DNA of 25,266 nt from a virus (IMGVR_UViG_3300031857_001262:1-25266), one strand, 5' to 3'; shown: positions 3,748-23,017, counted from the first letter of the stretch. The notes: generated by a model from the letters alone, not told the origin. A program made the numbers and translations.

Positions 3748-5166
3748 ATGGCCACTCTCACCAAAGGCAAAACCTTCACCAACGGCGAACTCGTCACCCC
3801 GCAAAAGCTCCACGAACTCGTCGATCTGGGCACCGTCTCCGGCATCGTCAATGCCGACATCGCCGCCGGTGCAGCCATCGCCGACAGCAAGCTCGCGCAG
3901 ATCACCACGGCGGGGAAGGTGCTGCCCGCTGCGGTGCAAGGCACGGCAGTGATAACGACCGACTCCCGCTTGTCGGATGCTCGGACGCCGGTGACGCATA
4001 CGCATGATGACCGCTATTACACTGAGGCGGAGATGACTACGCTTTTGGCAGGCAAGCAAGCGGCTGGAAGCTATGCGCCTTCAACAGGGATTGCGCCAAG
4101 CGCTATTACGGGAACGGCTGTGATAACGACTGACTCGCGCCTGTCGGATGCTCGCACTCCTTCTGATGGGAGTGTCACCAACGCCAAAATCTCTTCCACG
4201 GCAGCTATCGCCGACACGAAGCTCGCCACAATCAGCACCGCCGGGAAAGTCAGCAACTCCGCCACTACGGCGACAAACGCCAATACAGCCAACGCCATCG
4301 TCGCAAGAGACACCAGCGGCAACTTCTCCGCAGGGACAATCACCGCCGCCTTGTCTGGCAACGCTGCTACCGCAACGACAGCGGCATCCTGCTCTGGCAA
4401 CGCTGCTACCGCGACCACGGCGGCATCCTGCTCTGGCAACGCTGCTACCGCGACCACGGCGGCATCCTGCTCTGGCAACGCTGCTACCGCGACCACCCTG
4501 CAAACAGCCCGCACAATCAACGGAGTCTCATTTAATGGCAGCGCAGACATCACGGTCACTGCTAATCCGAATGCGCACACGCACGATGACCGCTACTATA
4601 CTGAAACAGAAATAACTACACTGCTTTCAGATAAACAAAAGATCAATGGGCAAACAATTTCTGCTGGTTTAAATTGGAACGGTAACACGGGAATCCGGTT
4701 TTCTAATATCCCATCGGGGGTGCAAAAATTTACATTATTAGTTGAAATTTGGATTCATAATTACGACAGTTCACCTGGACGAGGAGTGGTAAATATCGGC
4801 ACAACAACATCTGGGCTCATCACTTGGAACTCATCAGGAGTTATTGCGAACCCTTATTATGCCGCAGTTAATAATGCGGAAAATAGTGCAGGATTTGAAA
4901 TTACAGGGGGAGTAAATACATCGGCCGAGCATGTTGGCGTGTTTAATTTTTATGTAACAAATAACCCGTTTTCTCCCACTACTCAAAAACGGCTAATATG
5001 CGAATCGCATGTCACGCAAAGAAATACTTCGACGGGGGCTATCACAATTTTACAAGGAACAGGCTACATAGATTACACAGGAGAAATTAACGAATTTGTG
5101 CTAAGGCCTGTTTACGGTTCAAATGCAGTAGCAAGTGCCGCTGCGCGTTTATACTTCTATTACTAA
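3748..5166 (+). CDS. Tail fibre protein with phage tail repeats
   Basis: A 472-residue fibre, starting 2 bp after the previous stop. The N-terminal half is built from repeated phage-fibre modules: GTAVITTDSRLSDARTP occurs twice (about residues 68-84 and 122-138), HTHDDRYYTE twice (about 87 and 277), and an IAD-K-LA-I-TAGKV module twice. Next comes a tandem array of SGNAATATTAASC units (residues about 203-250) and a TINGVSFNGSADITV segment, typical of trimeric fibre shafts. The C-terminal about 190 residues are different: aromatic, Asn/Gly-rich and without repeats, as expected for a receptor-binding tip. The DNA falls from about 68% G+C (3841-3900) to 40% (4861-4920), which suggests the tip was exchanged. 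The fibre would bind the host surface at the start of infection. Confidence 0.9.
   Translation: MATLTKGKTFTNGELVTPQKLHELVDLGTVSGIVNADIAAGAAIADSKLAQITTAGKVLPAAVQGTAVITTDSRLSDARTPVTHTHDDRYYTEAEMTTLLAGKQAAGSYAPSTGIAPSAITGTAVITTDSRLSDARTPSDGSVTNAKISSTAAIADTKLATISTAGKVSNSATTATNANTANAIVARDTSGNFSAGTITAALSGNAATATTAASCSGNAATATTAASCSGNAATATTAASCSGNAATATTLQTARTINGVSFNGSADITVTANPNAHTHDDRYYTETEITTLLSDKQKINGQTISAGLNWNGNTGIRFSNIPSGVQKFTLLVEIWIHNYDSSPGRGVVNIGTTTSGLITWNSSGVIANPYYAAVNNAENSAGFEITGGVNTSAEHVGVFNFYVTNNPFSPTTQKRLICESHVTQRNTSTGAITILQGTGYIDYTGEINEFVLRPVYGSNAVASAAARLYFYY
4354..4497 (+). repeat. 39-bp tandem repeat in the fibre shaft (3.7 copies)
   Basis: Copies begin at 4354, 4393, 4432 and 4471, each opening tctggcaacgctgctaccgc and encoding the 13-residue unit SGNAATATTAASC. 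The second and third copies are almost identical, while the first has a few synonymous changes (caacgacag against cgaccacgg), so the array has expanded recently. The period is a multiple of three, so copy-number changes lengthen or shorten the shaft without breaking the frame. Confidence 0.95.
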
Positions 5167-6953: not shown

Positions 6954-8027
6954 ATGAAACAACTGATTGCGGAAACCGTAGATCGAATCCACGCCTGGCA
7001 CACCCGCTGGCCAAACGCCGCCGTGCTTTGGAGCGGCGGCAAAGACAGCACCGCCATGCTCCATGTGCTTCTGCACTACTGCGGCATCGACCTCCCTGTC
7101 GTGCAATACCGTGAGCCCAAGCTGCGTGAGCGCTACGCCTACAGCGACCGCCTCATCAAAGAATGGGGCCTCACCATTTACGACTACCCGCCGACACGCA
7201 TGGCCATCGCCGACGGGCCAGATACCGAGACCGGCGAGATGCGTTTCGACATGCTCAAATACTACCAGTGGGGCGAGACCGCTGTGGTGATGAGCCTCGG
7301 CACCGAGCGCCCCAAGCCCGGCGAGAGATTCCTTTGCGGCGTCACCGATTTCCTGCAACGCCCCACCGGCAACTTCAACTGGCCATGGGAAGCCGTATTT
7401 ATCGGCACCAAATACGAAGACACCGACCTCATCAAAGGCCATGTCCCTCTCGCTCTCGATATCCGCAATGTCCCAGGCGGTCCAGTGAGCCTCTACCCCA
7501 TGCGCGACTGGAGCGACAAGGACATCTACACCTACCTCGAAGACCACGGCGTCACGCCCGACCCCACCCGCTACATCAAGACCGAAGCCGGATGGGTCAA
7601 CAACCCCGACAAATCCCTCAACGCCGACTTCTACCCCACCTGCTTCAACTGCGTGGACCGCCATGCAGGCCCGCATGTGGACTGCCCCAAGCTCAAAGCC
7701 CGCATCAGCAACATCAGCCACCTCGCCCCCTACGAAGACATTGTTTTCCCCGACCTCGGTTTCAAACCTATATGGAATACGACTGCCAACGGTGTGGAGC
7801 CTGTTGCTCCCACAAATGGAGCTGGCCCGTGCTACGGCGCGACCGCTCCGACGCCACCGGCATCCCTGCCGACTACCTCCGCGATGACCTTCCTCTCTTA
7901 CGAACCGACCCTTGCGGCCGCTGTATCGCCCTCCGTGGCGAAGTGGGCCGAGGAGTCGCCTGCGCAATATACGAATCCCGCCCCCAAGCCTGCCGCTCAT
8001 TCCAGCCCGGCAGCGCACTCTGCATAG
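6954..8027 (+). CDS. PP-loop PAPS-reductase-family protein (possibly ending functionally near residue 275)
   Basis: The N-terminal domain carries the PP-loop SGGKDST at residues 27-33 (AVLWSGGKDSTAML) and continues through the adenine-nucleotide alpha-hydrolase fold, with the family-like stretch VSLYPMRDWSDKDIYTYL. A cysteine group C230-x2-C233 and C244 (CFNCVDRH, then DCP) lies near the end of the domain. The family activates a substrate through ATP or binds PAPS; phage members are adjacent to sulfur-transfer, tRNA or DNA-modification enzymes. The CysH-type KECGLH motif is absent, so classical sulfate assimilation is doubtful. After W274 the reading frame stays open for 83 more codons but becomes Pro/Ala/Thr/Ser-rich without structure, exactly where a YkgJ-type gene is read in the -1 frame. 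Those residues may be an artefact, an overlap, or the result of a lost stop. Confidence 0.85.
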   Translation: MKQLIAETVDRIHAWHTRWPNAAVLWSGGKDSTAMLHVLLHYCGIDLPVVQYREPKLRERYAYSDRLIKEWGLTIYDYPPTRMAIADGPDTETGEMRFDMLKYYQWGETAVVMSLGTERPKPGERFLCGVTDFLQRPTGNFNWPWEAVFIGTKYEDTDLIKGHVPLALDIRNVPGGPVSLYPMRDWSDKDIYTYLEDHGVTPDPTRYIKTEAGWVNNPDKSLNADFYPTCFNCVDRHAGPHVDCPKLKARISNISHLAPYEDIVFPDLGFKPIWNTTANGVEPVAPTNGAGPCYGATAPTPPASLPTTSAMTFLSYEPTLAAAVSPSVAKWAEESPAQYTNPAPKPAAHSSPAAHSA

Positions 8028-8544: not shown

Positions 8545-9395
8545 TGAGCGACCAACTTCGACCCGAGGATTTGGATGCGTTTGCCCAAAGCTACGACATC
8601 CCAGGCGCCGTGCGTGAAATGCCTCCGAAGCCCTCCAAAGGCAATAGCTATGACTTTAGTGGTATCGTTGTGCAAAGCCCCGAGGATTTTGCGCGTCTGC
8701 CAGAGTCTCAAAAGCAACTCCTGCGAAATATGAAGCAGGGCATCCAATACACTCCCGAGGCCGCCGCTTCGTTCGTGGAATCTTTCAATCAAAAGCAACT
8801 GGAGCAATCGACGCCGCAAGCCCAGGCCCAACTACAAAAAGCACAGCTTGACATTGAAAAGGCAACAGCAGAAGCGGCACAAATTCAGCAGCGCAAGCAG
8901 GCCGCCTCGTCCGAGATCGCCGGCATGCGCCAGATGCTCGCCGAGCTGAAAGGTCACCCAGGCATGAGCACCTCGGTAGGGGCTAAGGGCATCGAATACA
9001 ATTTCGGAATGGCAAAAGAACCTTACGGCGGAACAAAAGCCGCCGACTTCTACACGCTCCTCGAGCAGGTGCAGGGCGGCACATTCATGCAAGCCTTCGA
9101 CAAACTCAAGGGCGCCGGCCAGATCACCGAGCAGGAAGGCGCAAAAGCCACCGCCGCCATTGCCCGACTCAATGCTAGGCAATCAGAGGAAGGATTTGCA
9201 AAAGCCCTCATGGACTTTGATGGCGTCCTCGCCCAAGCCCAGGCGCGATCCCAACCCACCGCCCCGCAAGCTGCGGCAACCGCTCCCCAAGCAGCCCCGC
9301 AAGCCGCACCGGCACAACCCCAACAACCCGCCACCCGCGTTATCGGCGGACGCACCTTTATCCAACAACCGAATGGCAACTGGATCCCCCGCTAG
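8544..9395 (+). CDS. Virion-associated protein with coiled-coil region and Pro/Gln/Ala-rich tail
   Basis: A 283-residue protein. ATG 8544 overlaps the previous stop by one base and was chosen over an in-frame upstream extension that reads as a basic shadow. The N-terminus MSDQLRPEDLDAF echoes the TEELDAL motif repeated in the following giant protein. Residues about 85-145 (QLEQSTPQAQAQLQKAQLDI onwards) are Glu/Gln/Ala-rich and predict a coiled coil. After a globular-looking middle with TTLLEQVQGG-like helices, the last about 60 residues are Pro/Ala/Gln repeats (PQAAATAPQAAPQAAPAQ) ending in a short GGRTFIQQPNGNWIP motif. Directly upstream of the giant protein, it is likely another ejected or internal virion component. 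No enzyme motif is visible. Confidence 0.65.
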   Translation: MSDQLRPEDLDAFAQSYDIPGAVREMPPKPSKGNSYDFSGIVVQSPEDFARLPESQKQLLRNMKQGIQYTPEAAASFVESFNQKQLEQSTPQAQAQLQKAQLDIEKATAEAAQIQQRKQAASSEIAGMRQMLAELKGHPGMSTSVGAKGIEYNFGMAKEPYGGTKAADFYTLLEQVQGGTFMQAFDKLKGAGQITEQEGAKATAAIARLNARQSEEGFAKALMDFDGVLAQAQARSQPTAPQAAATAPQAAPQAAPAQPQQPATRVIGGRTFIQQPNGNWIPR

Positions 9396-12300
9396 AGAAT
9401 TTACCACCGAGGAACTGGATGCCCTGGCGGCCGCGGAGTTGCCGGCTTGGGATCAGCCTGCACCCGAAGCCACCCCCGCACCTGCCCGTGGGCCCGCCAT
9501 GGGCCCGGTTGCGCAACTAGAGGCCGACCGCGAATACAGCACCGAGGAATTGGATGTTCTCGAAAAATCCACCACCCCGCCGCCTCCAAAAGAATTCACG
9601 ACCGAGGAACTGGACATGGAGGCTGCCCGCCTCTTCGACGATCCGACCTACTCGCCGACCCGCGACGAGTATTTTGAGCTAAAAGCCACCAAGGAACGCC
9701 TCAAGGCCGAAGGCAAGCTGCCGGGCACCGCGGAACTCGCCGCCAAGGCCGTGGGCGGGCTTTTTGTCACCGCCATCGATGCGGTGAACTCCACCGTTTT
9801 CTCTCCTGCCGAAACCCTCGCTCAATCTCCCGCCACGCTCCAGACCGGCATCGGCCGCGCCGCGCTCGGCGCCATGCAGCTCGGCGGCTGGGCCAAAGAA
9901 GCCATCCAAGGCACTCCCAAATACCGAGACGAAGAGACCGGCGAGTTTTTCTTCTACAACAACGAAGTCCAACTCCAGAACGCTCTCGACTCCGGCCGCA
10001 AGCTCCGCCCCACCACCGAGGAAGACCTCAAAGACCACGAGTTTGAGAACTACATCGCCAAAAAAGGCATCGATGCCGAATACCAAGCCCTCGGCGAAAA
10101 GACCGCGCCCACCGAGCTCCTCACGCGCCTCATCACCGGCCGCAACCAGCAGGAGACTCCAAACATCGCGCAGGCCGGCGCACTGGAAATCGTGGCAGAT
10201 CCTACAAATCTCATCCCGCTCGGCGCCGGAGCCAAAACGCTCGGCCTCTCGCGGCTCGGCAAGACCGTCAGCGCCCAAACCGCCGGCGTGATCAGCAAGG
10301 TCGCCGGAGGATTGGCCGATGGCGGCGATGCTTTGGCTGGCCGCTTTGCCGATGTGGTCACCAACACCACCGGCCTCACGCCATCGACCGCTGGCAATGT
10401 GGTAAAAACCCTCACCCGTGCCAGCGTGGGCGGCGGCATCGCCGCTGGCGCATCCGCCTTGGGAGCGCCTCCCGAGGTGGCGGCCACCATTGCCGGATTC
10501 TACCCAGCCTACAAGGCAGGCATCGGCGTGCTGCGCAAGATCGAGACCGGTGCCGGGGCCGCTAAGATCATCCTGCGCGAGTCAGCCGATGCCACCAATG
10601 GGCTCGACCAAGCCGCCCGCGCCGCCGTGCTGGCGAATCCCTCGGTGCCGCAGGTCTTCAAAGAGGTGCTGGAGCGCCCCACCAATTTTGTGCCCATCGA
10701 GAGCACGCCGGCCCGCCTCGCCGCCGAGCAATCCCTCTCTCCGCAGATGCGCGGCCTCATGGGCAAACTCACCAACCCCGCCATCGTGCAATCGGTGCGG
10801 GGAGCCAGCGCCCTTGCAAAGGGCGCCGTGAAAGGCACGGCGATCAACGCCCCTTTCTCCCTGCTCGCAGCCAATGCCGGAGACGACGAAGAAGCCGCCG
10901 CCATGCTCGGTGCCGGTGCTGCCTTTGGCGCTTTAGGAGGCGGGGTGGACCGTTTCACCGGTCTCCAGCAACGCCGCCAGCAGGCTGCCATCAGCGATGT
11001 CTCCCGCATGCTGGTGGATGTGGAACTCGCCGGGGGCGATGTGGGCAAGATGATGTCCACGCAAACGCCCGAGAGCCTCGTCAAGCTCGCCTCGCTCCAA
11101 GGCACCTTCCGCAACGGGTTGGATTTGATTCCGCTGAACGCCACCGACTACAACGCCAATGTCTCGGCCAATGGCGGAGCCGGATCAGCCGGTCTTTTCG
11201 TGCAGGCGCCCGCCGGTCAACGCGCCAAAGTCTACATCAACCTCGATGCGAAACGCCAAGGCATCGAACCGCACGAGTTTGGCCACGCTCTGCTCGCCAG
11301 CGGCGCTCTGGATGGACAGCAAAAATTCGCCGCCCGCGCCTGGGTGGATAAAACCTACGGGGCCGAAGGCATCAAGGCCCGCGCCGCCGAATACGCCAGC
11401 AACATCATCCGCGCCAAAAACGCCGAGGCTTTCCCCGAGGGCAATTTCGAGATCACTCCCACCACGCTCGCGAGCGAGATGGAGAGCCTCACGCAGGGCG
11501 GACTCGCCCGGGGCGACATGGACGGCCTTGATTGGGCCCGCGACGAGATTTTCGCCGAGACATTCGCCAAGGCCAGCGAGACGATGGATTTCAATGCCAT
11601 TCGCCGCGGAGCACCCGCCGGAGGCAATTTCCTCACCTTCGCCGAAGGCATCCTCGGCGCCCAAGCCCGAGCCCTCACCGCCAGCGGCATCCGCATCGAC
11701 GGCCAGACCGGCCGCCCGCTCGACACCCCCGGCAGCCTATTCAAGGAAAACCCACTCCTCGCCACCGACAAGGCGCTCCTCGGCCAGCTCGGCACCTACA
11801 TCAACAACTACCGCCAGTGGGCCAACAACCCAACCCACGAAAAACCCGCCGGCGTCAAGATCGCCCCCAGCGGCCGAGCCAGCGACCTCGCCAACAATCC
11901 CCAGGTCACATTCTACGACCGAGGCGACGGCGTAAAAGCCAACGCCTTCGCCATCCAGGATCCCGTCACCGGCCAAGCCATCCTCCGCGACCAGCGCGAC
12001 CTCAACGCCGAACACGCCAAGCTCAAAGCCCAACTCAAAGCCCTCGGCGGATCCAAGCTCCTCGAGCCAAGCAACCCCGTGCTCGGCCCCAAAAAGACAG
12101 CCGACGGCCGCGTGACCATCCGAGGCAAAACCCTCCCGCAGTCCTTCGACTTCCTCAACGGCTTCATGCCCCACATCCGCAACTTCGCCCGCCAGTTCGA
12201 GCAATTTGGCCAGACAGGCGAAAGCATGCAGGTGCGCTACCACGCCATCGGCAGCGGCGACTCCGGCGCCTTCCAGGTCAAGAAACTCGGCAACCTCGAA

Positions 12301-15063
12301 GCCATCACCCGCGAGGTGCTCCCCTTCGAGTGGCAACTCACCAAGGCCGGAAACCTCAACGCCGTCCTCCTCGACCTCACCCAATTCCGCAACCGCGCCA
12401 TGCGAGGCATCAACGACCGCAACGAAGCCCTCGCCCCCTTCAACTGGGAACTCAGCCAGGTCGAAACCGACCTCAAGCAGTGGATGGATAACCACCGCAA
12501 CAACCTCCCCGGCGAAAACAAAATCGGCACCGCCAAGCGCGACGCCATCAACTCCCTCGTCGGCCTCGCCACCAACTACAACCGAGGCAAAAACCCCCTC
12601 AACGGAGCCTTCGGCCCCGGCAGCGCCATCAAACAATTCCGCCTCGACCGCGTAGACGCCGCCATAGGCACCGGCCGCCAAGGCTTCCACTTCGACTACG
12701 AAAAAGCCAACGGCAACCTCCTCCCCAACATCCCCGCCGCCATGCCGGACTTGTCAAGAGACCTGCCAGGCCAAGCCATGCCGGATATTACAATCACGCC
12801 GGACGAAGCCAAACGGCAGGGATTAGTTGGTCCTCTTTATCATGGAAGCCCTGATTTTAAGGGCCAAAAATTTGATCCCAAATATAGGGCAAGAAATTCC
12901 GGCCTGTCTCGAGGTGGTTTTTCTTTCACCGATAATGTCGAGTCGGCAAAAGGCTATGCTTCCAACAAAATAGATTCCGCGCAGTCCGCAGTAGATTCAG
13001 CAAATGATGTCATGCGAGAGCTCGCAGGCAGAATGGATAACGGATTAAAAGTGGATGGGTTTGCAGACTCTGCCGAGTTGCCAGAATTCAATTCCAGCTA
13101 TGTGGACGACATTGAGAGCTTGGGAGATTATTTCGACGAGATTGCAAACAAGATTCCAAAAGACCTTGGAGATCGCCTTCGTGTTGCCGCAAGCAAAACA
13201 AACGAGCCCGCAAATCCTGTAGTTGTCGAAGCCTTTTTAAGGAATCCAAAAGTCACGGAAATCAATGGCAAAAAACTTTGGGTTACAGAAAATCCAGATG
13301 ACATTTTTGTATCGGGAGTCACTAAGCCGCCCCAAGGCCAAGCCATGCCGGATGCGGTGGCTGGAAGGGCAAAAGACATGCCGATGTCAGCTTTGAAAGT
13401 GTTGCACGCAGATAGTTCGACTCTGCCAAAACCTGATAAAAAGACAACGAACGCCAAGGTGGCATTGCAGTTGGCAGATGCCGCTGAAAAGCATTACGGC
13501 GGCAAAATCACCAGCAGCAATATCACGCCAGAAATCGAGTCTGATCTAATCATCGTAGGATCGGATGAGGCTGAAGCGGCACTTAAAGCAAGCGGCAAAA
13601 ATGCCGCCAACTGGTATTCCACCGCAATCCAAGCGGCTTTGGCTGTAGCCGGAACAATTCATAGGTCTCTTTCGGATTTGAATGTCGCCAAACAAAACAA
13701 ATTCTTTGCCAAGGAAAGCGATCCGGTGAAAGCGGCGCAGTTTGCTCTTAGAATTCCACTGGCAATCACATCGCAAAACATGACCGTGCCGCTCAATGCG
13801 AGATACGCAAACGAGCAGTTCGATATATTTTCAAAAACAGGGAAGTTCGACCCGTCGAAATCTTACGGAGAAAAAGCAAAATCCATCAGCGGGAATCTTC
13901 AATTAGCCAACGACATGATTGATGCCTTTGGCGGAATCACTGCATTAGAGGCATTCGTATCCAAGGAATTTACCGTCCGAGACCTGGAAACCGTAGCGTC
14001 GAAAGCTGCCGGCCGTAAGGTTACAATCGCCGGGCGGAAAGAAGATATGGTCAATGGCGCGGCTATTTTTGGACCAAAAATTGGACAAGGTTTTCTGCAA
14101 AACCTCATGGGCAACTTTGACCCAGTCACTATTGATCTTTGGATGCGCCGAACATGGGGTCGCTGGACAGGCGATGTTGTTGGAGATGGAGTCACCGCCA
14201 CACGGCTTGGCCGAATCATTCAAGAACATCGCAACTCTGGAAGGAAACTCCCTGACTTGATCAAGCGGCTCCGCACCGTGGAAAGAAGCACTGGGGTCAC
14301 AAGCACTGGCAAGCCCAAAAAACCGGAACTCACGGTATCTGAAGATGTGGAGGCTCGCATCGATAATGATCCAGCATTCCGAAAAGAAATTGAAGCGTTC
14401 GCCAAAGAGGCCAATGCAGAATTCCAAGGCTACTACAAACTCATCAGTCAACCCATGTCTATTGATGAAGTAAAACGCATCAACAAGGCATTCCAAGACG
14501 CGCAGGCCAACCAAGACAAGGCTGATAGTATTATCCAAAACGCTTTCACAACGACCGTCCGCAGGCAGCAATCTATCAAAGCCATGCTTGACCAGAAATG
14601 GGATGGCATGTCTCCAGAGCAAAAGAAAAAACTCAACCAAGAAAACCCGCAGAAAGCCATTGCCAAAGATGCCTGGGTGGCAATGCAACACGCGGCACAA
14701 AAAAGGACTGAGGTCCTTCCAAACGAAATCAAAAACGCATTGAAGCCAAACTGGGCTAATGCAGCAAAATCTATTGTTTCCGAACTAAACCCCATCGATA
14801 TCCCATCCGATCTCGACCGCCGCGTTATTAGTCGCGTTGTAAACGGCATTCGAGAAGAAATGGGCCGTCGCGGATACAGCCTCACAAACGCAGATGTCCA
14901 AGCTATTTTGTGGTATCCAGAAAAAGATTTGTGGGCTAAATTACGAGGTGAACAAGAATCAGGTCTCAAACAAAGCTATGACGACGAATTCATCAAAATC
15001 GCAGAAGACCTTGGGCTTGGATCAGAAGCCCGAGAGGTTGCAAACCGAATCAGAGGCTATTGA
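9373..15063 (+). CDS. Giant polyvalent virion protein: HExxH protease motif plus ADP-ribosyltransferase-like module
   Basis: A 1,896-residue protein; ATG 9373 (MATGSPARE) was preferred to an upstream in-frame extension that is shadow coding of the previous gene, and it overlaps that gene by 23 bases. Domains in order: three copies of an E-F/Y-T/S-TEELD motif at residues about 9-16, 54-61 and 74-81; a long Ala-rich helical region with Gly-rich hydrophobic segments about 150-450; a zinc-protease signature HEFGH at 634-638 with candidate third ligand E725 or E729 in DEIFAETFA; an ADP-ribosyltransferase-like segment with LYHGS (H1157) and GGFSFTDN near 1181-1188; and a C-terminal domain containing GNFDPVTIDLWMRRTWGRW near 1575-1595 that I recall from other phage polyvalent proteins. 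Such proteins are packaged and ejected with the DNA. The base composition falls from about 67% G+C (12361-12420) to 42% (13801-13860), so the C-terminal third has a separate origin. Confidence 0.85.
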   Translation: MATGSPAREFTTEELDALAAAELPAWDQPAPEATPAPARGPAMGPVAQLEADREYSTEELDVLEKSTTPPPPKEFTTEELDMEAARLFDDPTYSPTRDEYFELKATKERLKAEGKLPGTAELAAKAVGGLFVTAIDAVNSTVFSPAETLAQSPATLQTGIGRAALGAMQLGGWAKEAIQGTPKYRDEETGEFFFYNNEVQLQNALDSGRKLRPTTEEDLKDHEFENYIAKKGIDAEYQALGEKTAPTELLTRLITGRNQQETPNIAQAGALEIVADPTNLIPLGAGAKTLGLSRLGKTVSAQTAGVISKVAGGLADGGDALAGRFADVVTNTTGLTPSTAGNVVKTLTRASVGGGIAAGASALGAPPEVAATIAGFYPAYKAGIGVLRKIETGAGAAKIILRESADATNGLDQAARAAVLANPSVPQVFKEVLERPTNFVPIESTPARLAAEQSLSPQMRGLMGKLTNPAIVQSVRGASALAKGAVKGTAINAPFSLLAANAGDDEEAAAMLGAGAAFGALGGGVDRFTGLQQRRQQAAISDVSRMLVDVELAGGDVGKMMSTQTPESLVKLASLQGTFRNGLDLIPLNATDYNANVSANGGAGSAGLFVQAPAGQRAKVYINLDAKRQGIEPHEFGHALLASGALDGQQKFAARAWVDKTYGAEGIKARAAEYASNIIRAKNAEAFPEGNFEITPTTLASEMESLTQGGLARGDMDGLDWARDEIFAETFAKASETMDFNAIRRGAPAGGNFLTFAEGILGAQARALTASGIRIDGQTGRPLDTPGSLFKENPLLATDKALLGQLGTYINNYRQWANNPTHEKPAGVKIAPSGRASDLANNPQVTFYDRGDGVKANAFAIQDPVTGQAILRDQRDLNAEHAKLKAQLKALGGSKLLEPSNPVLGPKKTADGRVTIRGKTLPQSFDFLNGFMPHIRNFARQFEQFGQTGESMQVRYHAIGSGDSGAFQVKKLGNLEAITREVLPFEWQLTKAGNLNAVLLDLTQFRNRAMRGINDRNEALAPFNWELSQVETDLKQWMDNHRNNLPGENKIGTAKRDAINSLVGLATNYNRGKNPLNGAFGPGSAIKQFRLDRVDAAIGTGRQGFHFDYEKANGNLLPNIPAAMPDLSRDLPGQAMPDITITPDEAKRQGLVGPLYHGSPDFKGQKFDPKYRARNSGLSRGGFSFTDNVESAKGYASNKIDSAQSAVDSANDVMRELAGRMDNGLKVDGFADSAELPEFNSSYVDDIESLGDYFDEIANKIPKDLGDRLRVAASKTNEPANPVVVEAFLRNPKVTEINGKKLWVTENPDDIFVSGVTKPPQGQAMPDAVAGRAKDMPMSALKVLHADSSTLPKPDKKTTNAKVALQLADAAEKHYGGKITSSNITPEIESDLIIVGSDEAEAALKASGKNAANWYSTAIQAALAVAGTIHRSLSDLNVAKQNKFFAKESDPVKAAQFALRIPLAITSQNMTVPLNARYANEQFDIFSKTGKFDPSKSYGEKAKSISGNLQLANDMIDAFGGITALEAFVSKEFTVRDLETVASKAAGRKVTIAGRKEDMVNGAAIFGPKIGQGFLQNLMGNFDPVTIDLWMRRTWGRWTGDVVGDGVTATRLGRIIQEHRNSGRKLPDLIKRLRTVERSTGVTSTGKPKKPELTVSEDVEARIDNDPAFRKEIEAFAKEANAEFQGYYKLISQPMSIDEVKRINKAFQDAQANQDKADSIIQNAFTTTVRRQQSIKAMLDQKWDGMSPEQKKKLNQENPQKAIAKDAWVAMQHAAQKRTEVLPNEIKNALKPNWANAAKSIVSELNPIDIPSDLDRRVISRVVNGIREEMGRRGYSLTNADVQAILWYPEKDLWAKLRGEQESGLKQSYDDEFIKIAEDLGLGSEAREVANRIRGY
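12768..13353 (+). repeat. 19-bp direct repeats bounding the ADP-ribosyltransferase-like module
   Basis: The 19-mer aggccaagccatgccggat occurs at 12768-12786 and 13335-13353 with no mismatch. It encodes GQAMPD in both places. The distance between copies is 567 bases, exactly 189 codons, so recombination between them would remove or duplicate the module without a frameshift. A shorter related copy (gccatgccgga) is at 12739-12749, giving AAMPD. Confidence 0.9.
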
Positions 15064-15353: not shown

Positions 15354-15454
15354 GTTGCCGGTTGTTGTTGGTGGTTCGCGTTTGTTGCCGTTTGGTTATT
15401 TCTTGCAAAAGTGGGCAACACGGGCAACAGAGTGGGCAACAACTTCTCTCTTTT
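15354..15454. promoter_or_regulatory. Candidate integrase arm-type sites (cgggcaaca repeats) upstream of the integrase
   Basis: The octamer gggcaaca occurs at 15413-15420, 15422-15429 and 15434-15441, and once left of the core at 15203-15210; inverted near-copies (tgttgccg) lie at 15382-15389 and near 15354. Repeats on both sides of an attP core are the pattern of arm-type binding sites recognised by the integrase N-terminal domain. The last copy ends 13 bases before the integrase start, so integrase binding could also control its own expression. Inferred from position and repetition only. Confidence 0.5.
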
Positions 15455-16471
15455 ATGAACCAATTCTTTGTCTCTCCTTACCCGCAGCGGCCGGCCACTC
15501 CTTGGAAATTGACGATTCCGCAGGCGGTGGCGGGGGTGCGGATTCGTCGATTTTTTCACACGGAGGCGGAGGCTTGGGCGGAGGGGCCGCGGATTTTGGA
15601 GAGGCTGCGCAAGGGGGGGACGGATGCGCTGGCGCTGGCGCCGCAGGGGATGAGTATGCGGGCGGCGGTGCGGGACTATGTGGCGAGCAAGGCGAAGAAG
15701 TCGGACAATCATCGGCAGAAAATTGAGCGGGTTTGCGCGGCGTTGATTGAGGCGTTCCCGGGGGCGGTGGCGGGGGTGACGCCGATGGCGGCGGCGCGGT
15801 GGTTCTCGACGATTGAGGGCAGCCCGACGACTCGGGCGGGCTGGCACCGGTATGCCTCGGGGTTTTTTTCCTGGTGCGTGGATATGGAGATCGCGGAGCG
15901 GAATCCTCTGCGGAAGGTGGAGGCGCCGCGGGCGGAGTCGAAGCGGTCGCTGATTTCGGCGAAGGAGTTGGTGGCGATTTTGGATGAGGAGATGAGTGAT
16001 GGGCTGAGGGCTTGGTTTCTTTTGGGTGCGTTTGCGGGGCTGCGGTCGATTGAGGTGGCGCGGATGCGGTGGGAGGATGTGGATGCGAGGGCGGGGCAGA
16101 TCGAGGTGCGGCGGGAGGTGAGCAAGCAATCCTCGGGGCTGCCGGAGCGGATTGTGGATTTCACTGAGCCGTTGAAAAAGCGGGCGGATTTTTTCAACAA
16201 GAGGAGCGGACAGATTGTGCCGGAGCATTCGCTGCGGCTTTATCGGGAGCGGATGAGGCTGGTGGAGGGGCTGGCGGAGCGGGGGGAGTTGCCGTGGACG
16301 AAATTTCCCGAGAATGCGCTGCGGCACTCGTATGCGACTTACCACTTGGCGCGGGGGCAGGACGCGCAGAAGACGGCTCACCAAATGGGGCACTCGACCT
16401 CGGCGATGGTGGAGCGGGTGTATGCGGTGCCGGCGCGCAAGGCGGATTGGCGGGCTTGGTGGCGGGTGTGA
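15455..16471 (+). CDS. int: Tyrosine integrase (phage site-specific recombinase)
   Basis: A 338-residue tyrosine recombinase that would catalyse integration at the adjacent attP and its excision. The start at 15455 (MNQFFVSPYPQ) follows an AT-rich stretch; the upstream in-frame residues come from the attP DNA. The N-terminal core-binding helices cover about 60-160 (SMRAAVRDYV, then WHRYASGFFSWCVDMEIAERNPL, a strong family hallmark). Catalytic residues: R197 in AFAGLRSIEVARM, R290-H291 in NALRHSYATY, H313 in MGHST and the nucleophile Y323 in RVYA. The usual first His of the HxLRH box is Asn (N287). The gene is the first of the G-rich block, and its stop lies 22 bp from the end of the converging lipoprotein gene. 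Confidence 0.95.
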   Translation: MNQFFVSPYPQRPATPWKLTIPQAVAGVRIRRFFHTEAEAWAEGPRILERLRKGGTDALALAPQGMSMRAAVRDYVASKAKKSDNHRQKIERVCAALIEAFPGAVAGVTPMAAARWFSTIEGSPTTRAGWHRYASGFFSWCVDMEIAERNPLRKVEAPRAESKRSLISAKELVAILDEEMSDGLRAWFLLGAFAGLRSIEVARMRWEDVDARAGQIEVRREVSKQSSGLPERIVDFTEPLKKRADFFNKRSGQIVPEHSLRLYRERMRLVEGLAERGELPWTKFPENALRHSYATYHLARGQDAQKTAHQMGHSTSAMVERVYAVPARKADWRAWWRV

Positions 16472-16914: not shown

Positions 16915-17211
16915 TTACTTTGCCTTGCCAGCCTGGCGGGAGGATTTGGTCGGAGCTGTTGAGGATCCACCACCGGAGCTCGCTGATGGTCGAATGACAT
17001 TGGCAGAGGCGCTCTGGGGCTGGCGGTTTCCCAATGTGTCGGTGCTTTCAAGGTCGCGCATTTGCTGGACGGCGTCGGCGATGACAGCGCTGCGGCTGCT
17101 CTTTAAGCGGCGGTCCTTGCGGTTGAGTTCTTCGACTTTTTCATCAATCCAATCGCGCAATTCGCGGTCCATGCTGATGGTGAATTTGACAACTTTTTCG
17201 GCGTTGCTCAT
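16915..17211 (-). CDS. Ribbon-helix-helix DNA-binding regulator, leftward
   Basis: A 98-residue protein on the minus strand starting MSNAEKVVKFTISMD. Residues about 6-13 (KVVKFTISM) fit the DNA-contacting beta-strand, followed by two helices (ELRDWIDEKVEELN, then SSRSAVIADAVQQMRDLE) as in Arc/MetJ/CopG-type proteins. The C-terminal about 35 residues are Ser/Pro/Gln-rich and unstructured. RHH proteins bind DNA as dimers at palindromic or tandem operators. The gene reads away from a 168-bp region that also faces a second RHH gene on the other strand, so it is the best candidate for the lysogeny repressor. A plasmid-type antitoxin is the main alternative, but no toxin gene is beside it. Confidence 0.85.
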   Translation of the reverse strand: MSNAEKVVKFTISMDRELRDWIDEKVEELNRKDRRLKSSRSAVIADAVQQMRDLESTDTLGNRQPQSASANVIRPSASSGGGSSTAPTKSSRQAGKAK

Positions 17212-18421: not shown

Positions 18422-19336
18422 ATGAAACTAAACATTGTAACAGGCAAACAGCAGCGGGCCCAGCGGGTCTGCTTTTATGGAGTGGAATCGGTGGGCAAGA
18501 CGACGCTGGCGGCGCAGGCGGAGTGCCCGGTGTTTCTGGATGTGGAGAATGGGACGGCGCACTTGGATGTGCCTCGGCTGTCGGTGAAGAGCTGGGGGGA
18601 GCTGATCGAGGCGGTGCGTGCGTTGGCGACGCCGGAATACAAGCAATTCAAGACGGTGGTGCTGGATAGCATCGACTGGGCGGAGCGGCTGTGCGTGGAG
18701 GATTTGAAGGCGGAGAAGAAGATTAAGAGCCTGGAGGAGATCCCGTATGGGAAGGGCTTCACGATGGCCTCGGAGCGGATGGCTCGTTTCCTCAATGAGC
18801 TGGACCGGCTGATCGATGTGGGGACGCATGTGGTGCTGATCGGCCACGCGCAGGTGCGGCGGGTGGAGCCGCCGGATCAGGTGCAAGCCTACGACCGGTA
18901 TGAGCTGAAGCTGCTGAAGCAGACGGGGCCGCTGGTGAAGGAGTGGGTGGATCACCTTTTCTTCCTGAATTTCAAGACGCGGATCGTGGAGAGCGAGAGC
19001 GGCAGGGCGAAGGGGCGCGGGGGCAAGGAGCGGGTGGTGCTGACGACGCACTCGGCGGCTTACGATGCGAAGACGCGGTCGGACTTGGCGGAGGAACTCC
19101 CGCTGGCGTGGGAGTCGGTGGCGCCTGTGTTTGGCAAGGTGCCGGGGGCGGCCGCGGCGCAGCCGGAGAGGGATCTGGACGGGGAGCTGGCGGCGCAAGA
19201 GGGGGCGGTGAATGCGTTTCTGCTGAAGCGGGGGAAGATCGGGGAGGGGCAGACCTACCGTGACATGCCGGAGGATTTCCGCCGGAAGATCGCGGAAAAT
19301 CCCGAGGGTTTCTGGAGGGCCGTGAAGGCGGCGTAA
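18422..19336 (+). CDS. Sak4-like RecA-fold ATPase (single-strand annealing/recombination)
   Basis: A 304-residue ATPase starting MKLNIVTGKQQRAQRVC. Walker A is at 20-28 (GVESVGKTT), and Walker B ends at D82 (TVVLDS). The overall pattern, with a cysteine or Phe before the P-loop, YGVESVGKTT and GHAQVRRVEPP near 145, matches the AAA_24 group that includes phage Sak4, which binds single-stranded DNA and promotes recombination with the phage SSB. The C-terminal part is charged and less conserved. The position beside a nuclease and an SSB-like gene supports that role: end processing, coating and annealing. It starts the G-rich replication block and has no clear Shine-Dalgarno, only an A-rich leader. 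An adenylate-kinase-like ATPase function is less likely. Confidence 0.85.
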   Translation: MKLNIVTGKQQRAQRVCFYGVESVGKTTLAAQAECPVFLDVENGTAHLDVPRLSVKSWGELIEAVRALATPEYKQFKTVVLDSIDWAERLCVEDLKAEKKIKSLEEIPYGKGFTMASERMARFLNELDRLIDVGTHVVLIGHAQVRRVEPPDQVQAYDRYELKLLKQTGPLVKEWVDHLFFLNFKTRIVESESGRAKGRGGKERVVLTTHSAAYDAKTRSDLAEELPLAWESVAPVFGKVPGAAAAQPERDLDGELAAQEGAVNAFLLKRGKIGEGQTYRDMPEDFRRKIAENPEGFWRAVKAA

Positions 19337-19339
19337 GGG

Positions 19340-19576
19340 ATGAGTCTTTTCCGTCCCGAGGGAGTCAATGAACGAAATGTCCAGAAATGGCTCGCAAAGC
19401 GAGGGATGGAAAACATCGGCCTGCACGATGCGCGAGTGGGAAACAACTCCCGTGAGGTGGAGGAGAACCGGCGCCTGGTGGACGAGGCGTGCGAGCGGTG
19501 GCTGCGGGCACGGGGAAAAGGAACGATGGGGCTGCGACAACAAATCACAAACGAAATAAACAATGCAAAACGATAA
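19340..19576 (+). CDS. Small basic hypothetical protein
   Basis: A 78-residue protein, MSLFRPEGVNERNVQKWLAK, with further helical segments VGNNSREVEENRRLVDEACE and an Arg-rich end. The Arg/Asn/Glu content and helix pattern suggest a nucleic-acid or protein partner role; no family was recognised. It starts 3 bp after the Sak4-like gene and overlaps the nuclease start by 14 bases. The last 15 codons coincide with a G-run plus A-rich stretch (19528-19562) resembling the leaders before neighbouring replication genes, so the C-terminus is under two constraints. Confidence 0.65.
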   Translation: MSLFRPEGVNERNVQKWLAKRGMENIGLHDARVGNNSREVEENRRLVDEACERWLRARGKGTMGLRQQITNEINNAKR

Positions 19577-20594
19577 AAATATACGGCACAGCATGCTGCC
19601 GAAGCTGGCGGAGTGCCCGAAGTATACCCCGAAGCCGGGCGAGGCTGGGCCTGCGGCGCAGCGGGGCACGGTGATGGATGAGGCGTTTCGGCTGGCGCTG
19701 CAGGGGGACCGCTCGAAGCTGGATGCGCTGCCGGCGGAGGATCGGCCGGGGGTGGAGTGGGCGGTGGCGCTCCTGGAGGACTACAAGCGGACGGGGGCGG
19801 TGGAGGCGCGGGAGGAATTCCTGGCGATGCACACGCCGGGGATCGCGCATGTGGGCACGGCGGATGCGCTGTGCGAGAGGCTGGGCTGGGTGGCAGATTT
19901 GAAGACGGGGGCCGTGAGGTCTTATATGGAACAGCTTGCGGCCTACAGCTATGCGTGCATGGCGACGCGGTTCGAGCAGGAGTGGACGGCGCATGTGCTC
20001 TACTGCGACCACCAGTTGGTGAAGAGCTACCGCTTCACTCTGGATCAAGCTCGGCAGATCGTGGAGCAGATCATTGCGGAGGTGAATGATCCGGCGGCGG
20101 AGCCTCGGGCTTCGGAATACTGCCGCTGGTGTGCCAATGAAAATACTTGCCCGGCGGTGGTGCGGCCGGTGGAGAAGGGGTTGGCGTTGGCGGCGCAGCC
20201 GGTGACGAGCTTGGAGACGATCCTGACCACGATCTTGGACTCGCCGGAGCGGATGGGGGAATTTTTAGCCCAATGGAAGATGGCGGAGAAGATGGTGGCG
20301 GAGCCGGTGGAGAAGGCGATGCGGTCTCGTCTTGAGACTGGCGCCGAGGTGCGGGGCTGGAAGCTGATCGATGTGAAGGGGCGCGAATACTACGACGCGG
20401 AGGGGATCGTGTGGGCGGCGAAGCAGGCGAATGCCTCGCTGGAGGCGGTGGTGCTGGCGATGGGCGGGACGATGAGTGGCAAGGCTTACCGCGAGTGGCT
20501 GACGCAACTGGGGCAGGAGCCGCTGAATGCGCACACGCGCACGGGCACGGGCTCGAAACAACTGCGCCAGGTGAAGCCGGCGAAGACGAAATAA
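19563..20594 (+). CDS. Cas4/RecB-like PD-(D/E)xK nuclease with four-cysteine cluster
   Basis: A 343-residue protein starting MQNDKNIRHSMLPKLAE. The nuclease core has GTADAL (D101), then VADLKTG (D112, K114) and MEQLAAYSYA, which fits the PD-(D/E)xK catalytic motif followed by the QxxxY helix of RecB/Cas4-type nucleases. C18 near the N-terminus and C187, C190 and C196 (YCRWC, then ENTC) give the one-plus-three cysteine pattern that holds a 4Fe-4S cluster in Cas4 and AddB; phage DUF2800 proteins are the closest group I recall. It would resect or trim DNA ends for the Sak4-like ATPase. The C-terminal about 130 residues are a helical domain with no recognised motif. There is no CRISPR array nearby, so a Cas4 adaptation role is unlikely. 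Confidence 0.85.
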   Translation: MQNDKNIRHSMLPKLAECPKYTPKPGEAGPAAQRGTVMDEAFRLALQGDRSKLDALPAEDRPGVEWAVALLEDYKRTGAVEAREEFLAMHTPGIAHVGTADALCERLGWVADLKTGAVRSYMEQLAAYSYACMATRFEQEWTAHVLYCDHQLVKSYRFTLDQARQIVEQIIAEVNDPAAEPRASEYCRWCANENTCPAVVRPVEKGLALAAQPVTSLETILTTILDSPERMGEFLAQWKMAEKMVAEPVEKAMRSRLETGAEVRGWKLIDVKGREYYDAEGIVWAAKQANASLEAVVLAMGGTMSGKAYREWLTQLGQEPLNAHTRTGTGSKQLRQVKPAKTK

Positions 20595-20678: not shown

Positions 20679-21170
20679 ATGCCTACATACACAGCAAAAA
20701 AACCAGAAGCGCCGCAAAGCGGCAGCAAATACTATGTCGAGCCGGGGATCTACAAGTGCGAGGTCTACACGGCGGAGGAGAAGACCTCGAAGCGTAAGCC
20801 GGATGGCTCGGGGGGAAACCCGATGATCGAGCTGACGCTCAAAGTGATGCTGCCGAATGGCAAGCAGGGGCCGGATGTGCGGGACTACCTTGTTTTCACG
20901 CCGAAGAGCAGTTGGAAGATCGATGCCTTCCGCGAGGCGTCGGGCGAGGCGGTGCTGGAGGGAGACTTTGATCTCTCGCCGGAGGCGTGCGAGGGGCGCG
21001 AGGTGGTGGCCATGATCGGCGACAAGCCGGGGGAGAAGGAGGGCGTGCGCTGGAATACGGTGGAATACTACCTGCACGGCGAGGAGCGGGCGGAATTCCT
21101 CGGGGGAACGAAGGCGGCGCCTATGGCTCGGCCGGCGGTGACTGCGCAGGGGGATGACATTCCGTTTTAA
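20679..21170 (+). CDS. SSB-like single-strand DNA-binding protein (DUF669-like)
   Basis: A 163-residue protein starting MPTYTAKKPEAPQSGSKYY. The central part has the strand pattern of an OB-like fold (GIYKCEVYTAEEKTS, then MIELTLKVMLPNG and VRDYLVFTPKSSWKIDAF), and the sequence ends in the acidic-hydrophobic tip DDIPF, the hallmark by which bacterial and phage SSBs recruit partner proteins. The FTPKSSWKIDAFREASG segment is as I recall for phage DUF669 proteins. It would coat single-stranded DNA during phage replication and recombination and cooperate with the Sak4-like ATPase and nuclease upstream. It has an A-rich leader rather than a Shine-Dalgarno. Confidence 0.82.
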   Translation: MPTYTAKKPEAPQSGSKYYVEPGIYKCEVYTAEEKTSKRKPDGSGGNPMIELTLKVMLPNGKQGPDVRDYLVFTPKSSWKIDAFREASGEAVLEGDFDLSPEACEGREVVAMIGDKPGEKEGVRWNTVEYYLHGEERAEFLGGTKAAPMARPAVTAQGDDIPF

Positions 21171-21842: not shown

Positions 21843-23000
21843 ATGTGGATACTACCAAAGAATTTACAGCTATCGAGTGGTGCGCCGGATACGGCGGGAT
21901 TCATCTCGGACTTAAACGAGCAATCCCAAATCTGCGCGTCATCGCTTATGGCGAGATCGAAGGCTTCGCCTGCGCGAACTTGGTTGCAAAAATGGAAGCG
22001 GGACTCTTGGACCCAGCACCTCTCTGGACGGATATTAAGACCTTCCCATGCGAGGACTTTCGTGACCGAGTGGACCTCCTTGTGGCCGGTTACCCCTGCC
22101 AGCCATTTTCCGCAGCCGGAAAGCGACTCGGCACAGAAGACCCTCGCCACCTCTGGCCACACATCGCCAGATCAATACGAGTTATTCGACCTCGACTATG
22201 CTTCTTTGAGAATGTCGAAGGACACATCTCCCTCGGACTCCGAGAAGTCATTGGAGAGCTGGAATCAATCGGTTACAAAGCGGCGTGGGGAATATTCAGC
22301 GCGGCTGAAGTCGGCGCACCGCACCAGCGCAAGCGGGTCTTCATCTTGGCCTACGACCAACGCACGAGATTGGAAGGATTCTGTCAATTCAGTTCCGCCA
22401 TCAGTAGGTCAGACTCGAGGTCACAGCCTTGGAATGGCTGTAGCGGAGAAGAATTGGCCTACGACAGCAGCGCGGGATTACAAAGGAACATCTCCCAATT
22501 ACTTAATGCGCAAGGATGGGAAGAGTCGAGCGGATCAGTTAGCTGTTGCGGTGGATTTGGAAGAACAGGTGAATTGGCCCACCCCAACGGTGCAGGAAGC
22601 GGGCAAGATTGGCAATCAAGCCAATCATGGCCAATTAGCTTTAAGCAATCACCCCGCGATTCGCGGAGAAGTGAATCGGGACAAATACGACAAGGGCAAG
22701 CATGGCCTTCCCGCCCCGGCCAACCCCAGCACGGATGGGAGCCGCCCAGAGTCGTGGGCAACGCCAGAGTGCAAGAACCATGTAGGCTATCAAGTGGATC
22801 GGACAGGAGCGATGTGGCCACGGCTTGGGAGTCAAGTGGCAGGCAAGCTCAACCCTCGATGGGTGGAGACGCTGATGGGACTGCCGGTGGGCTGGGTTAT
22901 GCCGAGTTGTGCGTCACCTGTGACAATCGAACCGACGAGCTACGCCTCCTCGGCAACGGAGTCGTGCCTGCCACCGCAGAGCGAGCTTTTCGCGTTTTAA
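21843..23000 (+). CDS. Candidate overlapping gene: 385-residue Trp-Pro-Thr repeat protein inside the methyltransferase gene
   Basis: ATG 21843 (MWILPKNLQLSSG) opens a frame of 385 codons that runs in parallel with the methyltransferase, which starts at GTG 21845, and ends 17 bases before it. Both share the aagga site at 21832-21836. The product is Ser/Thr/Lys/Trp-rich and not Arg/Pro-biased as most shadow frames here are. It has four WPT/WATP elements at residues 169, 205, 245 and 305 (SSWPTTNARDWKD, KNWPTTAARDYKG, VNWPTPTVQEAG, SWATPE) and LNPRWVETLMGLPVGW at 336-351, a signature I recall in stand-alone phage proteins found beside cytosine methyltransferases. A second expressed protein is therefore plausible. 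Other shadow frames in this window are also long, so openness alone proves nothing. Function unknown. Confidence 0.5.
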   Translation: MWILPKNLQLSSGAPDTAGFISDLNEQSQICASSLMARSKASPARTWLQKWKRDSWTQHLSGRILRPSHARTFVTEWTSLWPVTPASHFPQPESDSAQKTLATSGHTSPDQYELFDLDYASLRMSKDTSPSDSEKSLESWNQSVTKRRGEYSARLKSAHRTSASGSSSWPTTNARDWKDSVNSVPPSVGQTRGHSLGMAVAEKNWPTTAARDYKGTSPNYLMRKDGKSRADQLAVAVDLEEQVNWPTPTVQEAGKIGNQANHGQLALSNHPAIRGEVNRDKYDKGKHGLPAPANPSTDGSRPESWATPECKNHVGYQVDRTGAMWPRLGSQVAGKLNPRWVETLMGLPVGWVMPSCASPVTIEPTSYASSATESCLPPQSELFAF

Positions 23001-23017
23001 TAGAAGAACTTATTTAA
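21845..23017 (+). CDS. DNA (cytosine-5) methyltransferase
   Basis: A 390-residue C5 methyltransferase; the GTG start gives MDTTKEFTAIEWCAGYGG. Motif I is AGYGGIHLGL (14-23, the S-adenosylmethionine site), motif IV is PCQPFS with catalytic C85, motif VI is ENV at 122-124, motif VIII is QRKRVFI at 161-167, and motif X is LLGNGVVPATAERAF ending about 382. Residues about 170-350 are the target-recognition region, here unusually repetitive with LAYD and LAHPNG segments. It would methylate cytosine in phage DNA against host restriction. No cognate nuclease was found, so it appears to be an orphan. The composition differs from the G-rich flanks, and nearly the entire gene is overlapped by another open frame. 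The stop overlaps the helicase start by one base. Confidence 0.92.
   Translation: MDTTKEFTAIEWCAGYGGIHLGLKRAIPNLRVIAYGEIEGFACANLVAKMEAGLLDPAPLWTDIKTFPCEDFRDRVDLLVAGYPCQPFSAAGKRLGTEDPRHLWPHIARSIRVIRPRLCFFENVEGHISLGLREVIGELESIGYKAAWGIFSAAEVGAPHQRKRVFILAYDQRTRLEGFCQFSSAISRSDSRSQPWNGCSGEELAYDSSAGLQRNISQLLNAQGWEESSGSVSCCGGFGRTGELAHPNGAGSGQDWQSSQSWPISFKQSPRDSRRSESGQIRQGQAWPSRPGQPQHGWEPPRVVGNARVQEPCRLSSGSDRSDVATAWESSGRQAQPSMGGDADGTAGGLGYAELCVTCDNRTDELRLLGNGVVPATAERAFRVLIEELI

Follow-up and report, generated by a model that had tools for sequence, protein, structure and literature searches.

Why does a giant phage gene carry two perfect 19-base-pair (bp) direct repeats around a single module that resembles an ADP-ribosyltransferase (ART)? 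This question is raised by the viral contig IMGVR_UViG_3300031857_001262, of which the whole stretch of 25,266 nucleotides was analysed (hereafter the window). The repeat AGGCCAAGCCATGCCGGAT has one exact copy at 12768-12786 and another at 13335-13353; the window contains no further copy, even with 3 mismatches allowed, and a pair of copies exceeds chance (0.03 expected; none of 100 shuffles contains two). Both copies are read as (P/Q)GQAMPD in the same frame of an open reading frame (ORF) of 1,967 codons at 9160-15063. A preliminary description of this DNA, which regarded the module as a swappable effector cassette, had placed the repeats correctly and had located LYHGS and GGFSFTDN between them, as window search and translation also do. 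Its figure of 567 bases for the spacing is right too, but the divisibility by three to which it pointed carries no information, because copies that encode one peptide within a single ORF are necessarily in frame; every pair of linkers within one protein in the relatives is likewise separated in frame. We consider it most likely, with a probability of about 0.6, that the two repeats are members of a set of standard linkers common to a whole family of giant polyvalent-type proteins, that cassettes are exchanged by recombination at these linkers, and that the linker peptide is possibly cleaved. The gene is laid out as follows.

9373-15063 (open frame 9160-15063), plus strand: gene for the large polyvalent-type protein, which closes the structural block (ORF, translation and relatives L081-L160).
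10972-11757, plus strand: zincin-like metallopeptidase region of the N part, with HEFGH at 11272-11286 and WARDEIFAE at 11533-11559.
12739-12750, plus strand: degenerate linker copy AMPD (PAAMPDLSRDLP) at the end of the N part, seen in translation; short relatives stop soon after it.
12769-12786, plus strand: linker 1, GQAMPD, in the first repeat copy; homology breaks and G+C drops here.
12787-13335, plus strand: cassette F3, a putative degenerate ART-fold module by sub-threshold Pfam match, hhalign and alignment.
13336-13353, plus strand: linker 2, GQAMPD, in the second repeat copy; homology breaks here.
13354-15060, plus strand: C-terminal module F6, shared at about 98.5% identity with L083 and L090, where other cassettes precede it.

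The protein has 1,896-1,967 amino acids depending on the start, and the short overlap with the upstream ORF makes ATG 9373 the probable true start. Two features had been overlooked in the preliminary description, namely the third, degenerate AMPD copy and a fall in G+C at the first repeat (around 12790), where it goes from about 0.63 to 0.47. Because the low G+C persists to the gene end, this break marks the start of the whole cassette region and not of F3 alone, and a comparable step is seen in other phages of the clade.

Relatives were gathered by six scans of viral contigs with the cassette, the N part and the C part as queries, and only natural sequences were compared, with no joined flanks. 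About 70 related phage contigs share a conserved N part, behind which come 0-4 unrelated cassettes and, last, one of about a dozen C-terminal modules, and the junctions are formed by hexapeptides such as GQAMPD, AQGMPD, GQAMPE, GSAMPD, GQALPD and AQFMPD. Segmentation, in which the linker motif itself served to cut the proteins, sorts the segments into 42 families and gives 48 distinct closed architectures, in which zincin-like, ART-like, LPD3, DUF7178 and C5-methylase domains are combined with unknown modules, so that disparate domains are joined in one very large polypeptide, as in polyvalent proteins. The window, with the architecture N / F3 (ART-like) / F6, contributes two among the many junctions of this family-wide linker set.

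The same cassettes recur in different company. F3 is followed by F4, F6, F7 or F24 depending on the phage and can be preceded by F10, and F6 is preceded by F3, F19, F30, F22 or F16. Presence and absence can also be compared directly: L006 has F3 and F7, whereas L091, L092 and L094 have F7 alone, and the F7 copies are about 94% identical (L006 shares 94.2% with L091 and 93.0% with L094, the two compared). Similarly, L102 (F10+F8) differs from L105 (F8), L103 (F32+F10+F15) from L096 (F15), and L104 (F10+F3+F4) from both L097 (F3+F4) and L100 (F10+F4). The idea of a swappable module with GQAMPD junctions is thus strongly supported, with F3 standing before four different C-terminal parts and an extra cassette ahead of it in L104. 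The preliminary description had asked that homologues be compared for presence or absence of the module and would have given up its reading had all homologues carried the module without repeats; homologues lacking the module exist, close homologues with the module have linkers, and L174 has variants of them. In L174 (3990-4600) the same ART-like module lies in a different backbone between AYFMPD and VNFMPD, which suggests that the MPD linker extends beyond the giant-protein family. A helical insertion within F3 recurs at roughly one-third identity in cassette F19 (L083 2679-3218 versus window 12973-13200), a similarity that amounts to nested mosaicism.

The homology breaks are precise. Where two phages share the left cassette and differ in the right one, DNA identity falls from 0.88 at the last linker codon to 0.57, 0.35 and about 0.25 over the next codons, and the mirror case, with the right cassette shared, behaves alike; between proteins, homology ends at the hexapeptide. 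When homology blocks were defined by BLAST without the motif, their ends lay at a median of 8 amino acids from a linker compared with 150 for random positions, and 57% of them were within 10 amino acids of a linker compared with 5% of random positions; this test addresses circularity for the breakpoints only. In the C-terminal parts the linker motif occurs 123 times, against 1.4 times in shuffled sequences. Taken together, these comparisons of homologues show that gain, loss and recombination of cassettes and C-terminal modules between phages take place exactly at the linker hexapeptides.

It is also evident that the hexapeptide is not confined to the giant protein. A second gene lies downstream of the polyvalent gene on the opposite strand:

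16915-17211, minus strand: gene for a small ribbon-helix-helix (RHH)-like protein (sub-threshold match to Pfam RHH_1); the window copy is without GQAMPD.

In most phages of clade A, to which the window belongs, GQAMPD forms the junction in the RHH-like protein between an N-terminal domain, of which there are three types, and a tail, of which there are several, its usual codons being GGC CAA GCC ATG CCC GAC (L081 14185-14601, L090 14859-15311, L096 14542-14880 and L101 15087-15518). These alignments show that domains are swapped at the same hexapeptide in this phage gene as well.

The peptide and the DNA of the linkers have behaved differently. Between clade A and clades B and C, the G, Q and A codons agree in the third position at a frequency of only 0.17-0.23, whereas identity at first and second positions is mostly 0.63-1.0. 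Because the amino acids are kept between clades while third codon positions differ, the linker peptide is probably under selection. Position 4 of the hexapeptide is limited to M, L, I, V or T, the last position is mostly D or E, and the hexamer is followed by A, V or I in 77% of the linkers that precede unrelated cassettes (82 of 107). Within clade A, linkers with unrelated flanks have a third-position identity of 0.59-0.89, and pairs of them share at least 18 exact bp in 26% of cases and at least 23 in 7.6%; by these figures the linker DNA is homogenised within the clade, as recombination would produce.

The linker may be retained for a function of its peptide, most simply as the cut site of the zincin-like protease fused to the same protein, and we would put the chance of this slightly below even; as a best guess, the peptide serves most likely for autocleavage. 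The motif has a core of a hydrophobic residue, Pro and an acid and sits between domains, and short relatives terminate near the first linker copy. In the N part, H-E-x-G-H-A and W-A-R-D-E are invariant in an alignment of 21 diverse homologues. An AlphaFold2 model of the region (predicted local distance difference test, pLDDT, 72.8) has three strands, an HExxH helix and a second acid-bearing helix, and the strands and helices predicted for the N part match the polyvalent zincin core described by Iyer et al. 2017 (PMC5512222). The best viral Foldseek neighbour of the model is a polyvalent-domain protein, below significance (E 0.03). Sequence searches of the PDB with the N-part and ART profiles gave no match. 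Association with a zincin, which is common but not obligatory in polyvalent proteins, is found here at the motif level only. Cuts at the linkers would release separate effectors from the polyprotein during packaging or after injection; judged from its position after the virion genes and from the analogy with polyvalent proteins, the giant protein is probably carried in the virion and injected into bacteria. A fuller version, in which one hexapeptide would be at once an in-frame recombination adaptor and a protease cut site and would be used in trans as the same connector by the second protein, is put forward as tentative.

Two related ideas were discarded. A general prohead-protease site was rejected, as [AFGM]MP[DE] is missing from the scanned ORFs of a complete relative, including terminase, capsid and scaffold; outside the giant protein, the linker motif was likewise found in no ORF of a complete relative or of the part of another that was covered. 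A dead zincin does not account for relatives without cassettes, since L109 and L112 have HExxH and yet no cassettes and the lineage comprising L133, L134, L136, L138 and L153 has an HExxxH variant. This lineage has no cassette array, its protein ending, or continuing for one domain, right after NNNMMPD.

The window encodes the following recombination genes, of which the tyrosine integrase, next to the polyvalent gene, is listed as context.

15362-16471, plus strand: tyrosine integrase gene (phrog_1, E 1e-32; Pfam Phage_integrase, E 9e-9).
18422-19336, plus strand: Sak4-like single-strand annealing recombinase (phrog_124, E 8e-48; PF13479, E 2.5e-47).
19563-20594, plus strand: PD-(D/E)XK / DUF2800 exonuclease (phrog_69; PF12705 and PF10926 above cut-off).

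The Sak4-like protein is a candidate driver of cassette exchange, with the exonuclease as its possible partner. Exchange would likely proceed by homologous recombination or single-strand annealing across 18-30 bp of shared linker DNA, with Sak4 and the exonuclease likely driving it in part of the family, the window phage included, and the single reading frame of the linker would keep the exchange in frame. The shared exact stretches (at least 18 or at least 23 bp) come near the published minimum pairing lengths of 23-27 bp for Red-beta and 31-34 bp for RecA (PMC3945230). A Sak4-type domain is present in 8 of 16 relatives and an integrase-family match in 10 of 16; among relatives lacking a full Sak4 match, two have a weak partial match to the RecT profile and none matches the ERF profile.

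The cassette between the repeats had been described as an ART-like module with LYHGS and GGFSFTDN elements typical of the fold, and this stands in part. The catalytic His is kept in YHGS (12841-12843) and conserved in homologues, and the F3 profile aligns with canonical ART-PolyVal at 95.6% probability in hhalign, over the first 44 residues or columns only. Against Pfam ART-PolyVal (PF18760), F3 scores 18.0 bits (E 0.005), below the family cut-off of 31.2, and the strand-2 Tyr is replaced by Ser (12922-12924) in every homologue, so that the His-Tyr-Asp site of ART-PolyVal is incomplete and activity is uncertain. The Asp of NPDDIF (13300-13302) is possibly the strand-5 acid, and the helical insertion (around 12973-13200) splits the domain. 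In an AlphaFold2 model the pLDDT of F3 is 51 overall, about 30 in the ART part and 82-91 in much of the helical part. F3 as a degenerate ART-fold domain with a helical insertion, a weak match, is thus partly supported. By gene order and analogy with polyvalent proteins, it may be a packaged effector, as had been proposed, and would probably act on a host target.

Several observations weigh against linkers that are both exchanged and cleaved. The cleavage, packaging and injection proposed here, and an ART activity of F3, are predictions from sequence. A Foldseek search with the zincin-like model returned no match at E <= 0.001, leaving the zincin fold unconfirmed. The cassette-free L109 and L112 retain the zincin site, and the RHH-like gene bears the hexapeptide without a fused protease. 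Most linker pairs are exactly identical over a short stretch (a median of 11 bp within clade A), and 8 of the 16 relatives gave no Sak4 match, so recombinases of the host, or illegitimate recombination, may play a part. The codon differences at the clade level represent few independent events, and there is some circularity in a catalogue segmented by the motif and in peptide conservation measured on linkers found by it.

Other explanations differ mainly in what they make of the peptide. The linkers could be pure recombination scars, a short border sequence that spread by cassette movement and whose peptide has no function. Homogenised linker DNA within clades, third codon positions included, would fit this, as would exact stretches of 18-32 bp common to otherwise unrelated junctions, and phage mosaics are known to arise through relaxed phage recombinases that act on short homology (PMC3945230). 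A scar, however, would not be expected to keep G, Q, A, P and the acid between clades despite changed third positions, nor a restricted position 4, a final D or E and a following A, V or I in 77% of linkers despite unrelated cassettes, and the second gene has the same peptide in other codons; we hold scars without function to be rather unlikely. Alternatively, GQAMPD might be a docking or packaging tag on the cassettes and the RHH-like protein, by which all of them would bind one partner (a portal, scaffold or chaperone, for instance). That these phages have it in two different proteins, one of them without a fused protease, and that it was not seen in the other proteins of a complete relative speak for a tag, but the hexapeptide lies strictly between domains, short relatives stop near the first copy and no partner is known; we consider this reading unlikely.

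The remaining alternatives concern the DNA. An internal translation start giving separate C-terminal products was suggested by an AGG 7 nucleotides ahead of the in-frame ATG of the repeat and by the many variants at the ATG codon that are alternative start codons. It was rejected by a synonymous-shuffle control, in which the overall Shine-Dalgarno energy of -2.8 kcal/mol is close to the -2.6 of shuffles (mean percentile 0.59), and in clade A the Shine-Dalgarno is even weaker than expected (-2.0 versus -2.4). Moreover, most checked genes of the window phage start without a Shine-Dalgarno, and neither P and D after the ATG nor Q and A before it would need conservation; such a start is very improbable. 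Site-specific recombination at the linkers by the tyrosine integrase, whose gene begins 300 bp past the end of the polyvalent gene, appears equally improbable, as linker DNA differs between clades at synonymous positions, unlike the conserved DNA site of an integron- or shufflon-like system. Also, 6 of 16 relatives have no integrase match, though these records may be fragments, and no obvious inverted-repeat arms are seen by eye at the linker. Least credible of all is an assembly artefact or a chance repeat. The contigs are metagenomic and the repeat is short, but dozens of contigs from many samples agree and the motif is far above chance. Repeats of 19 bp are also usually shorter than assembly k-mers.

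How, then, do standard linkers with exchangeable cassettes relate to known systems? Like polyvalent proteins (PMC5512222), the window protein is very large, stands at the end of the structural block and has a zincin-like HExxH site, and the cassettes of its relatives include ART-like, LPD3, DUF7178 and DNA methylase domains; by domain content it is a member of this class, its injection being putative. Processing of polyvalent proteins by the fused zincin was proposed by Iyer et al. 2017, who also drew the analogy with viral polyproteins and described extensive polyvalent domain mosaicism in one Helicobacter group (PMC5512222). The word "linker" does not occur in that text, whereas here a standard peptide linker among unrelated domains is the swap point. 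F3 shares with ART-PolyVal (PF18760; Tox-ART-HYD2 clade, H-Y-D site) the YHGSPDFKG and GGxxF motifs and a place between polyvalent-type modules, but its score below the cut-off, the Ser in motif 2 and the insertion also present in F19 set it apart, and it is not confirmed as a member. Mosaic phage genomes (De Paepe et al. 2014, PMC3945230; Smug et al. 2023, PMC10684548) also exchange modules over short homology with a phage recombinase and shuffle domains within genes; here, one coding hexapeptide is reused at many junctions of unrelated cassettes. The study of phage domain shuffling (PMC10684548) mentions neither polyvalent proteins nor linkers. GQAMPD had no match in the open-access literature searched, nor was a standard linker in a polyvalent-type protein found there. 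Viral polyproteins with an embedded protease are analogous in having several activities per chain, a protease and a repeated inter-domain sequence, but the cassettes here are freely exchangeable and their cleavage is putative; by this analogy, the window protein would work like a polyprotein of exchangeable cassettes. In the giant protein of L183 (Phage C75C1, OQ984151; about 2,770 residues, 38751-7576 across the origin), YxLP(D/E)FxV occurs 8 times between helical segments, compared with 0.015 expected by composition, possibly an unrelated parallel to the GQAMPD linkers.

If linkers of this kind are indeed exchanged and cut, phages would have a plug-and-play format for injected effectors that lets them insert, drop or rearrange any cassette without leaving the frame, and this would explain how they continue to exchange counter-defence or host-takeover domains without breaking the giant protein. 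Self-processing of polyvalent proteins by zincins would become directly testable, because the cut sites are predicted. The linker is also a search handle, as segments between two linkers are candidate injected effectors, mostly of unnamed families.

The host group may be hinted at by leaders that are Shine-Dalgarno-free (genes starting at 1841, 3748, 5172, 6954, 18422, 19563 and 20679) and in several cases A/T-rich. The N part was found in no bacterial genome in a bacterial genome search and in no INPHARED isolate; in INPHARED, the C module weakly matches three phages and three other segment queries from relatives match none. A host search with the integrase gave at best a 27% match, and the window contains no tRNA. 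Further genes of the window are:

6954-8027: phosphoadenosine phosphosulfate reductase-like gene, within the structural block.
20679-21170, plus strand: DUF669-like protein (DUF669, E 0.002, below cut-off), possibly a single-strand-binding protein.
21845-23017: DNA methyltransferase gene (phrog_363, E 5e-55).

At the N-terminus of the giant protein (9396-9614) an EFTTEELD-like motif occurs three times, and a loose form of it has 1-3 matches in 36 of 77 scanned homologues and none in 41; these repeats are possibly another docking motif. Similarly repetitive is a probable tail-fibre gene, in which a 39-bp tandem repeat (4318-4512) encodes GNAATATTAASCS.

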